Positions 42,837 through 46,756 of a stretch of 64,000 nucleotides of DNA are shown piece by piece. The notes beneath the pieces are model-generated. The model had not been told where the DNA came from. It made no database searches and saw only the letters and a program-made list of their open reading frames with translations. Numbering within the stretch: position 1 is the first letter of the stretch; every line of letters starts with the position of its first letter. Origin of the DNA: Candidatus Bipolaricaulota bacterium (GTDB taxonomy: Bacteria > Bipolaricaulota > Bipolaricaulia > UBA7950 > UBA9294). The stretch covers positions 1-64,000 of the forward strand of contig JANQEA010000043.1 of NCBI GenBank assembly GCA_028278555.1, in the 5' to 3' direction. The translations under genes and the position numbers were made by a program.

Positions 42837-44165
42837 ATGTTCGAATCCCTCACGACCAAGCTGACCGACGTCTTCGACCGCCTCCGCGGGCGCGGTCGAC
42901 TGACGGAGGACGACGTGAACGCAGGGCTGCGCGAGGTCCGCCTCGCCCTCCTGGAGGCCGACGTCAACTACAAGGTCGTCAAGGGTCTGATCGAGCGAAT
43001 CCGCGCCGAGGCGGTCGGCGAGGCCGTCCTCGAGTCCCTGACGCCCGGACAGCAACTGATCAAGATCATTCGGAGCGAGCTCGCCGAGACGATGGGCGGT
43101 GAACGGGCGACGCTGTCGCTCGATCGACGCCCGGCGGTCGTCGTCCTTGCCGGGCTACAGGGCTCGGGGAAGACGACGGCGGCGGCGAAGCTGGCCGCCC
43201 TGTTGAAGAAGGAGGGACGAAAGCCGGTCCTCGCGGCGGCCGACCTCGTCCGTCCGGCGGCGATCGATCAGTTGATGACGCTCGGCGAGCAAGTCGGTGT
43301 TCCGGTCGTCGCCCGCCCGGAGCTCGCGCCGCCTGCGGTCGCGACCGAAGCGGTCGAGTGGGCCGTGGAGAACCTCTCCGATGTGGTCCTGATCGACACG
43401 GCCGGCCGCCTCCAGATCGACGACGACATGATGAGCGAGTTGGAGGAGATCGTCGCGGCGACCGAACCGTCGGAGATCCTCCTCGTCGCCGACGCGATGA
43501 CCGGCCAGGAGGCGGTGAACGTCGCCACGGCGTTCGACGAACGGCTCGGCCTGACCGGAATCATCCTGACGAAGCTCGACGGAGACGCGCGTGGCGGCGC
43601 GGCGCTGTCGATCCGGCAGGCGACAGGACGGCCGATCGTCTACGTCGGGACCGGCGAGAAGGTCGATGGCCTCGAGCCGTTCCATCCGCAGCGGATGGCA
43701 GACCGGATCCTCGGGATGGGCGACGTCGTTACGCTGATCGAACAGGCCGAGGAACGGATCGATCAGGAGAAGGCCGAGGAGCTGGTCAAGCGTGTCCGGA
43801 AGAACCGACTGACGTTGCAGGACTTCCTCGAACAGCTGGAGGAGATGCAGAAGCTCGGCCCGGTGTCGCAGATCCTCGAGCGCCTCCCCGGCGCGGCGAA
43901 GCTGAAGGCGAGCGCCGACTCCGACGAGGAGGCCGAGATGAAGCGAGCACTCGCCATCCTCCGATCGATGACGGTGGAAGAACGGCTCAACCCGTCTATA
44001 ATCGGGGGAAGCAGGAAGAAACGAATCGCTCGCGGCAGCGGGACGAAGGTGCGAGATGTCAATCGTGTCCTGTCGCGGTTCGAGGAGGCCAAGCGGGCGC
44101 TGAAGATGGTCGGAGGACGTCGGGGGAAGGGACGTTCCCCGCTCGACATGCTCGAGGCCTCGTAG
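42837..44165 (+). CDS. ffh: Signal recognition particle protein (SRP54 homologue)
   Basis: 442 aa from the ATG at 42837 (GAAAGGATCGCG upstream). The N domain is followed by the GTPase with Walker A GLQGSGKTT, LVRPAAIDQL, VLIDTAGRLQ and ILTKLDGDARGGAAL. The C-terminal methionine-rich M domain (MKRALAILRSMTVEERLNP) carries the 4.5S-RNA-binding helix with GSGTKVRDVN. It targets membrane and secretory proteins, which fits the many exported proteins here. It leads the ffh-rpsP-khpA-trmD run. Confidence 0.96.
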   Translation: MFESLTTKLTDVFDRLRGRGRLTEDDVNAGLREVRLALLEADVNYKVVKGLIERIRAEAVGEAVLESLTPGQQLIKIIRSELAETMGGERATLSLDRRPAVVVLAGLQGSGKTTAAAKLAALLKKEGRKPVLAAADLVRPAAIDQLMTLGEQVGVPVVARPELAPPAVATEAVEWAVENLSDVVLIDTAGRLQIDDDMMSELEEIVAATEPSEILLVADAMTGQEAVNVATAFDERLGLTGIILTKLDGDARGGAALSIRQATGRPIVYVGTGEKVDGLEPFHPQRMADRILGMGDVVTLIEQAEERIDQEKAEELVKRVRKNRLTLQDFLEQLEEMQKLGPVSQILERLPGAAKLKASADSDEEAEMKRALAILRSMTVEERLNPSIIGGSRKKRIARGSGTKVRDVNRVLSRFEEAKRALKMVGGRRGKGRSPLDMLEAS

Positions 44166-44215
44166 CGTAAACAGGGTCTTTCGTTTCACGACAACAATCT
44201 GACTGAGGTGAAGTT

Positions 44216-44848
44216 ATGGCAGCGAAGATTCGGTTGAAGCGAGTCGGGCGGAAGGGACAGCCGTCGTACCGCATCGTGGTACTCGACGGGCAGAAGCCGC
44301 GGGACGCGAAGGTCGTCGCGGATCTCGGATCGTACGATCCGAAGACGAACCCGCCGACGTTCGAGGTTGACAGCGACGCCGCCCTCAAGTGGCTCCTCGA
44401 CGGAGCGAAGGCGACGAGCGCGGCCCGGAGCATCCTCTCCAAGGCCGGCGTGATGGCAGCGTGGGACGCGGCGAAGCGCGGCGAGACGGTCGCGATGCAG
44501 CCGAAGGAACTGAAGCCGACGACCAAGCGGAAGAAGAAGGAAGAGCCCGTCGCCGAGGAGGAGCCAGAGGCGGTCGAAGAGGCGGCCGAGGACGCAGCGG
44601 AGCAGCCCGAGGAGCAAGCCGAAGAAGCAGTCAAGGACGAGGTCGAGGAGACCGCCGAAGCTGCTGATGAGGACGAACCCGAGGCCGAAGCTCCTGAAGA
44701 ACCGTCGGAGGAATCTGCGGACGAACCGGTCGAAGACGTAGAAGAAGAGGCCGAGACCGAAGAGACGCCGGAGGACGAACCGGAGGCGGAAGCCCCTGAA
44801 GAGCCGGCGGAAGACGCGGACGAAGAGGAGGCCAAGGAAGAGGCCTAG
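44216..44848 (+). CDS. rpsP: 30S ribosomal protein S16 with a long acidic C-terminal tail
   Basis: 210 aa, against about 80-90 for typical S16. Residues 1-85 are a normal S16 (RLKRVGRKGQPSYRIVVLDG, DLGSYDPKTNPP, AARSILSKAGVMAAW). After a basic TKRKKKE segment come about 100 residues of almost pure Glu/Ala/Pro/Asp, including two copies of EDEPEAEAPEEP. The tail stays in frame to one stop and follows the codon style of the neighbours. Gly/Glu-rich tails on S16 occur elsewhere, but this length is uncommon. Confidence 0.94.
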   Translation: MAAKIRLKRVGRKGQPSYRIVVLDGQKPRDAKVVADLGSYDPKTNPPTFEVDSDAALKWLLDGAKATSAARSILSKAGVMAAWDAAKRGETVAMQPKELKPTTKRKKKEEPVAEEEPEAVEEAAEDAAEQPEEQAEEAVKDEVEETAEAADEDEPEAEAPEEPSEESADEPVEDVEEEAETEETPEDEPEAEAPEEPAEDADEEEAKEEA

Positions 44849-44862
44849 CCTCGGGAGGCGAA

Positions 44863-45096
44863 GTGCTGTTTCGGCTTTGTGAGTACCTCGTCCATTCGCT
44901 CGTCGAGCATCCGGATCGAGTGAAGATCGACCGGATCGAGACCGAGCGGGTGGACATCCTCTTTTTGCACATCGGCAAGGAGGATCGCGGGCGGATCCTC
45001 GGGAAGAGCGGTCGGACGATCGGCGCGCTCCGGACCTTCCTTGAGGGGGTCGCTGCGCGAGTCGATCGAGAGGTCGTCGTCGAGATCCTCGACTGA
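44863..45096 (+). CDS. khpA: KH-domain RNA-binding protein KhpA
   Basis: 77 aa from a GTG preceded by GGGAGGCGAA. It has the KH signature ILGKSGRTIGALRTFL with the GxxG loop reading GKSG. YlqC/KhpA forms a heterodimer with KhpB and binds many RNAs; the position between rpsP and trmD is conserved. Size and place are standard. Confidence 0.93.
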   Translation: MLFRLCEYLVHSLVEHPDRVKIDRIETERVDILFLHIGKEDRGRILGKSGRTIGALRTFLEGVAARVDREVVVEILD

Positions 45097-45116: not shown

Positions 45117-45854
45117 ATGCGTTTCGACATCCTGACGATCTTCCCGGAAGCACTCCATGGGTTGCTCTCTGTCGGCGTTCTCGGCCAGGCGGTCGACGCC
45201 GGCCAGATCGAGATCCACACTCACGATCTCCGCGACTTCACCGACGATCCGCATCACGTCGTCGACGATCGGCCGTACGGCGGTGGTGCCGGGATGCTCC
45301 TCAAGGTCGAGCCGTTCGTTCGGGGGATCGAGACGATCCGTCCCGAATCCGGACCGAAGACGAAGACGATCCTCCTCTCCTCGCAGGGGAGGCTCTTCCG
45401 GCAGGCCGACGCGCAGCGGTGGGCGCAGCTCGACGGGCTGATCCTTCTCTGCGGCCGCTACGAAGGGATCGACGAGCGGATCGTCCAGTTCGTCGATGAG
45501 GAGATCTCGATCGGCGACTACGTCTTGACCGGGGGAGAAGCGGCCGCGGGGGTGATCGTCGAGGCGGTGTCGCGGATGACACCGGGCGTCGTCGGCCGGT
45601 TCGACTCGATCGAGAGCGATTCGTTCTACGACGGAAGCGAACGGCTCGGAGCCCCTCAATACACGCGGCCGTCGGTCTTTCGCGGCCTCGAAGTCCCGAC
45701 GATCCTCCAATCGGGGGATCACGCGAAGATCGAGGCCTACCGCGAGGCCGAGGCGTGGAAGAAGACGGCCCGCAACCGCCCCGACCTTCTCGGATTGCAC
45801 CCAGAGCAGTCAGGTGCTCAGTCAGACATTGAGGAGACGACCCCGGATGGGTAA
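45117..45854 (+). CDS. trmD: tRNA (guanine37-N1)-methyltransferase
   Basis: 245 aa, standard. It is a SPOUT knot methyltransferase: RFDILTIFPE at the start, DDRPYGGGAGML, LCGRYEGIDERI, IGDYVLTGGE, and the tRNA-binding C-terminal helices. It makes m1G37 in tRNAs. It begins 20 nt after khpA with no rimM between them, and its last 8 nt overlap the next methyltransferase gene. Confidence 0.95.
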   Translation: MRFDILTIFPEALHGLLSVGVLGQAVDAGQIEIHTHDLRDFTDDPHHVVDDRPYGGGAGMLLKVEPFVRGIETIRPESGPKTKTILLSSQGRLFRQADAQRWAQLDGLILLCGRYEGIDERIVQFVDEEISIGDYVLTGGEAAAGVIVEAVSRMTPGVVGRFDSIESDSFYDGSERLGAPQYTRPSVFRGLEVPTILQSGDHAKIEAYREAEAWKKTARNRPDLLGLHPEQSGAQSDIEETTPDG

Positions 45855-46435: not shown

Positions 46436-46756
46436 ATGGACGACATTCTGCGCGCGATCGAGAAAGAGTCATTGAAGGAACGCGGGGAATTCACACCGGG
46501 GGACGTCGTACGCATCCACGAGCGGATCACCGAGGGGACGAAGGAGCGAGTCCAGATCTTCGAGGGGATCGTTCTCAAGCGAAGCGGCGGCGGAACGCGC
46601 CAGATGGTGACTGTCCGCAAGATCTCGTCGGGAATCGGCGTGGAGAAGACCTATCCGGTCCACTCGCCGAAGATCGAGAAGATCGAAGTGGTCAAGGCGG
46701 GACGCTCCCGTCAGGCCCGCCCGTACTTCCTCCGCCGACTCCGCCGCATCCGCTGA
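46436..46756 (+). CDS. rplS: 50S ribosomal protein L19
   Basis: 106 aa. Typical marks: FTPGDVVRIHERITEGTKERVQIFEGIV, SGGGTRQMVTVRKISSGIGVEKTYPVHSPKIEKI and the basic FLRRLRRIR end. It lies in the large-subunit bridge region. AGGAGGAGCAG precedes the ATG. lepB starts directly after its stop. Confidence 0.97.
   Translation: MDDILRAIEKESLKERGEFTPGDVVRIHERITEGTKERVQIFEGIVLKRSGGGTRQMVTVRKISSGIGVEKTYPVHSPKIEKIEVVKAGRSRQARPYFLRRLRRIR

Follow-up and report, generated by a model that had tools for sequence, protein, structure and literature searches.

Acidic C-Terminal Tail of Ribosomal Protein bS16 in a Candidatus Bipolaricaulota Bacterium and Its Co-variation with the uS2 Tail

Ribosomal protein bS16 of a bacterium from the uncultured phylum Candidatus Bipolaricaulota (assembly GCA_028278555.1, here G000) carries a genuine, in-frame, disordered acidic extension on an otherwise normal S16, and in one family of the phylum the charge of this tail evolves together with the uS2 tail and, more loosely, with how acidic other proteins are. 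The rpsP gene was analyzed within a window of 64,000 nucleotides (contig JANQEA010000043.1, positions 1 to 64,000 of the forward strand). The acidic S16 tail belongs to an already known kind, and its joint change with the uS2 tail is what we add here. Our favored reading, to which we assign a probability of about 0.5, is that the tail is a polyanion that is disordered, exposed to solvent and adjusted to ionic conditions.

Results and Discussion

The 210-residue protein is assigned to bS16 on its S16 domain score and on the position of rpsP beside ffh, khpA, trmD and rplS. It scores 59.9 bits with PF00886 (curated cut-off 27) and 85.9 bits with TIGR00002 (cut-off 45.3), and the gene order reads ffh, rpsP, khpA, trmD, an RNA methyltransferase (PF09936) and rplS (Table 1). 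The window is part of a contig of 209,927 bases, and the host genome (2.9 Mb, approximately 88% complete) contains a single S16 match. The first-pass annotation had described a normal S16 core followed by a short basic hinge and an acidic tail of over 100 residues with an internal duplicate, and each of these elements was recovered, as can be seen in Table 1. Its placement of the tail at 44480-44848 holds in that an acidic tail is present there, but position 44480 falls within the hinge and the acidic part proper occupies 44540-44845. Opposite rpsP, at 44059-44835 on the minus strand, lies a Ser/Ala-rich open reading frame of 258 aa that looks like an antisense shadow of the Glu/Ala codons.

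Table 1. Coordinates and supporting data for rpsP, its parts, the neighboring genes and the uS2 gene of G000
Feature	Coordinates	Strand	Evidence or remark
rpsP, bS16 of 210 aa plus stop codon	44216..44848	+	Pfam PF00886 (Ribosomal_S16) E 2.3e-16, residues 9-67
S16 core, residues 1-85	44216..44470	+	identity with six rows from genus g3 at 71-74 of 85 positions; AF2
Hinge, residues 86-108, KRKKK at its end	44471..44539	+	g3 identity; AF2
Acidic low-complexity tail, residues 109-210	44540..44845	+	55 D/E and 2 K/R; composition, shuffles, AF2
EDEPEAEAPEEP copy 1, residues 152-163	44669..44704	+	12-mer, 36 nt
EDEPEAEAPEEP copy 2, residues 186-197	44771..44806	+	4 synonymous and 0 nonsynonymous differences from copy 1
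ffh (SRP54), upstream of rpsP	42837..44165	+	Pfam SRP54 E 4.3e-73
khpA (KH domain), 14 nt downstream of rpsP	44863..45096	+	Pfam KH_KhpA-B E 2.4e-16
trmD	45117..45854	+	Pfam tRNA_m1G_MT E 2.8e-53; khpA-trmD gap too small for rimM
rplS (bL19), 106 aa, no acidic tail	46436..46756	+	Pfam Ribosomal_L19 E 1.7e-35
uS2 of G000, with 114-residue acidic tail	L174:1159-2382 (contig C38, outside the window)		

Residues 106-210 comprise 46 Glu, 21 Ala, 11 Pro, 9 Asp and 5 Lys, with a net charge of -50, so that Ala and Glu together account for 64% (67/105) and Asp, Glu and Ala for 72% (76/105) of this C-terminal stretch. The counts in Table 1 start at residue 109 and thus exclude the three lysines at 106-108. 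None of 5000 dinucleotide-shuffled versions of the tail DNA reached a net charge of -50 (mean +12.7, lowest -12); 3707 contained a stop codon, and the mean content was 33 Lys/Arg per 105 residues. It is thus the reading frame, and not the base composition, that accounts for the acidity of the tail. AF2 gives a mean pLDDT per block of 77-96 over residues 1-90 and places the last helix at residues 79-92, after which pLDDT stays around 50 up to the C-terminus; per 10-residue block of the tail the mean lies at 49-61, and no secondary structure is predicted. The tail is no folded domain.

A search of the phylum for S16 matched 86 of 100 genomes, G000 included. As two genomes gave two pieces each, 88 loci were read, six of which were dropped (cut by a contig end or incomplete in the core) to leave 82 proteins. 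Fewer than 20 residues follow position 85 in 60 of these, at least 20 in 22, at least 30 in 14, and at least 100 in three (G000, G010 and G028); many relatives have an S16 of about 91-100 aa, and the longest S16 in the sample, that of G028, reaches 289 aa. Counted from residue 86, the net charge of the tail is -20 or lower in four genomes: G000 (-46), G010 (-43), G014 (-23) and G028 (-68). S16 tail length is dependent on lineage, and inside one family the extension beyond residue 85 ranges from 6 to 204 residues. Genus g9, for instance, has tails of 41-55 residues made of Ala, Lys and Glu that are not acidic. The core and the hinge are kept while tail length and charge vary freely: a hinge motif, AKRGETVAxxxKELK, is common to G000 and genus g3, with 10-13 of the 16 residues at 86-101 identical in six rows, but beyond the hinge G000 and g3 cannot be aligned, and comparison among relatives yielded no conserved motif in the acidic part. 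Four changes are required for the strongly acidic state on a tree built from Ffh, KhpA and TrmD; the tree was made with a quick method and puts G010 on a long branch, and G032, in which a contig end truncates S16, was scored as not acidic.

Several irregularities accompany these loci. Contigs end inside the S16 tails of G002a and G032 (loci L078 and L074) and inside one uS2 tail (L186), a sign that assembly may be broken at these points by repeats or strain variation. Two distinct S16 genes occur in the G002 bin, on separate contigs (L078 and L081), and probably come from two strains. In family f6, S16 was not matched in five of the six genomes (G042, G045, G048, G051 and G054). Gene loss was considered and set aside: TrmD is absent from the same five genomes while uS2 is present, making missing contigs the simpler explanation, and the absence of both genes probably reflects a contig missing from the bins.

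The second tail of this kind in G000 is that of uS2, with 61 Asp/Glu and 2 Lys/Arg over 114 residues and six Asp at its end. We ran a composition scan over 459,884 bases of G000 (the window and the S10-spc-alpha region included; approximately 430 open reading frames of at least 100 aa), in which an acidic 50-mer was defined as having at least 20 Asp/Glu and at most 5 Lys/Arg. Eleven reading frames contained such a 50-mer, with charges of -29 for bS16, -30 for uS2 and -15 to -18 for the other nine, and tails of such acidity are thus limited to bS16 and uS2 within the 0.46 Mb scanned. The approximately 26 ribosomal-protein reading frames of the S10-spc-alpha region, named by eye, are without one. 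Used as a query against G000, the acidic tail returned, besides itself, one weak match (E 0.014) in a frame overlapping other reading frames; this search missed the uS2 tail and is therefore too insensitive for counting tails. Tails on uS2 are general in the phylum, with at least 33 residues past the core in 56 of 58 loci, the other two being interrupted by N runs. The 196-residue uS2 tail of G028 (L183) consists, read by eye, of about four similar repeats of approximately 40 residues.

Co-variation was assessed in the 25 family members in which both genes are complete, three of 28 rows having been dropped because a gene was cut by a contig end. The four strongly acidic S16 tails belong to the same genomes as the four most acidic uS2 tails, a coincidence with a chance of 8e-5 under random draw when relatedness is ignored. 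For tail charge, contrasts on the tree correlate at r 0.90, and for tail length at r 0.87 (sign-flip p about 0.001); a few contrasts dominate, and these tests were picked after the pattern had been seen. Leaving G010 out yields r 0.90 with p 0.002, and ranks of contrasts give r 0.69. Plain rank correlation of the two tails gives a modest rho of 0.41 (p 0.04, n = 25) because below the top four genomes the tails are only loosely related. Earlier rho values, which included the incomplete S16 of G026 and a G010 uS2 tail read past an N run, were 0.29 for length and 0.26 for acidity in 46 genomes, and 0.26 and 0.44, respectively, in 25 of the family.

The same four genomes also have the most acidic TrmD, KhpA and Ffh C-terminal part, taken together, among the 25. 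Contrasts in this combined acidity correlate with S16 tail charge (r 0.41, p 0.0003) and with uS2 tail charge (r 0.40, p 0.047); by TrmD alone the four genomes rank 1, 2, 6 and 8 and are not singled out. Across the phylum (81 genomes) neighbor acidity relates weakly to S16 tail charge (rho 0.19, p 0.095). The most acidic neighbors among these 81 (-6.86 per 100 aa) are those of G039, whose S16 of 89 aa is nevertheless without a tail; acidity is therefore not sufficient for an S16 tail. The sampled proteome of G000 is mildly acidic, at -2.30 per 100 aa versus -0.68, -1.41 and -1.72 in three relatives for which different genes were sampled.

Precedents for such tails appear in a proteome survey by Ntountoumi and co-workers. 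It covers more than 1500 proteomes and names S2, S16 and L25 as those ribosomal proteins of bacteria for which over 100 orthologs carry low-complexity regions; the low-complexity regions of ribosomal proteins are mostly C-terminal and expected on the ribosome surface, those of S16 consist mostly of Ala and Glu (above 70% in 157 of 187), and halobacteria have more acidic low-complexity regions (PMC6821194). This 2019 survey listed the low-complexity tails of S16 and S2 and left open what they do (PMC6821194). The present tails resemble those of the survey in residing on the same two proteins, at the same end, in being rich in Ala and Glu and in their probable surface exposure. Counted over the whole of residues 106-210, Ala plus Glu lies slightly below the 70% mark, the kind of tail being the same. 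The present tails differ in that acidic residues outnumber Ala in the G000 tail (55 Glu/Asp, 21 Ala) and in that tail charge here goes with the S2 tail within one family, co-variation being no part of the ribosomal section of that survey (PMC6821194). Literature searches on acidic tails and the bacterial ribosome, and on C-terminal extensions in Bacteroidetes, returned nothing.

Long bS16 proteins are also found among ribosome structures. PDB entries 7jil, 9zcd and 9i5v, which we take to be Bacteroidota ribosomes, contain bS16 of 188-192 aa, likewise a core with approximately 100 extra residues; phmmer aligns them over nearly the full length, the C-terminus being of low complexity, but the tails of 9zcd and 7jil are rich in Lys. 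With PRK14521 (186 positions), presumably the Bacteroidota-type S16 model of NCBIfam, G000 S16 scores 87.7 bits, below the cut-off of 209. Entries 8crx (147 aa), 32nj (156 aa) and 5v93 (162 aa) are, we assume, extended bS16 proteins of Actinobacteria. In C. acnes and M. smegmatis, as in G000, extra residues continue past the core, and in both structures the proximal part alone is modeled. In contrast to Bipolaricaulota, where 16S rRNA helix 17 has full length, this helix is short in C. acnes (PMC10085706) and, by our own measurement, in two Demequina. With NCBIfam PRK14520 the G000 protein scores 82.8 bits, short of the cut-off of 165.

We propose that the S16 extension acts as follows. Residues 86-108, the conserved basic hinge, are probably located at the surface of the 30S subunit, and residues 109-210 would project into solvent as an intrinsically disordered polyanion, growing and shrinking probably via internal duplication. 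Whether S16 is free or part of the small subunit, the tail would form an electrostatic, hydrating bristle fitted to the ionic strength inside the cell; such a bristle may keep the basic S16 and the subunit soluble and limit nonspecific contacts with RNA.

The main alternative to this polyanion is near-neutral slippage, in which longer C-termini are tolerated on uS2 and bS16, repeats multiply at these ends, and the amino-acid bias of the genome renders the product acidic without any function. Internal repeats within the S16 tail fit this account, as do the 6- to 204-residue span within one family, the differing compositions (the Ala/Lys/Glu tails of g9 among them) and the contig ends and N runs in S16 and uS2 tails, such as repeats might cause. 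It is harder to reconcile with the near absence of Lys and Arg over 102 residues where shuffled DNA yields a mean of 33 in 105, with a duplicated 12-mer whose copies differ synonymously only, with S16 tails changing in parallel with uS2, and with the lack of any further protein carrying such a tail in the 0.46 Mb sampled; we hold neutral slippage to be possible but doubtful. A plain error (frameshift, misassembly or a wrong stop) was also considered. The first-pass annotation had stated that relatives with a normal-length S16 would imply a local frameshift. Such relatives do exist, but the frameshift does not follow: the frame is continuous, a second genus has kept the hinge, three further genomes (G010, G014 and G028) of two genera also have acidic tails, and khpA starts 14 nt past the rpsP stop. 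The data refute this explanation, and its probability is practically nil.

Two further explanations assign the tail a defined contact, in line with the suggestion of the first-pass annotation that it could affect assembly or the binding of partners. By analogy with Actinobacteria, the extension could reach uS4 and stabilize the 30S body where helix 17 is short. A 65-residue extension of C. acnes bS16 binds uS4 and is discussed in connection with the short helix 17, its flexible C-terminus being without density (PMC10085706), and of the 74 extra residues of M. smegmatis bS16, 30 form a short helix reaching uS4 (PMC6133939). The hinge shared with genus g3 is consistent with such a bridge, and a contact of the hinge with uS4 might exist. 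However, the helix 17 region, taken as an anchor-to-anchor distance (40 Bipolaricaulota 16S loci tried, 37 measured, three without a value), is in 34 of the 37 exactly as long as in E. coli, namely 116 nt, versus 96 nt in two Demequina with S16 proteins of 183 and 184 aa; the exceptions measure 111, 117 and 119 nt. Its length is the same in G000 (S16 of 210 aa), G014 (165 aa) and G009 (91 aa), G010 and G028 standing outside the comparison as they gave no 16S match. With helix 17 at full length in short- and long-S16 genomes alike, compensation by the acidic tail is not supported, and as the acidic part itself is not conserved we judge the uS4 bridge unlikely. The tail might instead serve as the docking site of one particular basic partner (an assembly factor, for example, or another ribosomal protein), or substitute for a missing assembly factor such as RimM. 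In E. coli the RimM gene is in the trmD operon, S16 is an assembly protein according to a review, and a 2025 survey finds few ribosome biogenesis factors in Bipolaricaulota and calls for more genomes (PMC12641178). RimM (PF01782) was matched in none of 60 group genomes searched, G000 included, versus 10 of 14 control genomes. Since relatives with a short S16 are also without RimM, the tail does not track RimM loss, and its role as a RimM replacement was discarded; the acidic part is moreover devoid of a conserved motif, and docking appears very improbable.

Conclusions

The comparisons above establish the anatomy and the variability of the S16 extension and, inside one family, its co-variation with the uS2 tail and with how acidic the neighboring folded proteins are. 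A more far-reaching version of the salt-tuned polyanion, which we offer as a speculation that is rather unlikely as a whole, is that bS16 and uS2 would form matched polyanionic bristles on the 30S subunit, their charge jointly tuned to the ionic strength of the cell, and that this would constitute a ribosome-specific salt adaptation with several origins in one bacterial family, in which two tails have lengthened and remodeling has not been proteome-wide only. Papers on hypersaline settings mention Bipolaricaulota. Salt tuning of the bristles predicts that their charge tracks intracellular ionic strength across bacteria, whereas neutral slippage predicts no such relation. Together with the partial link to the acidity of other proteins, the parallel change of the S16 and uS2 tails thus turns a set of catalogued tails into a testable statement.
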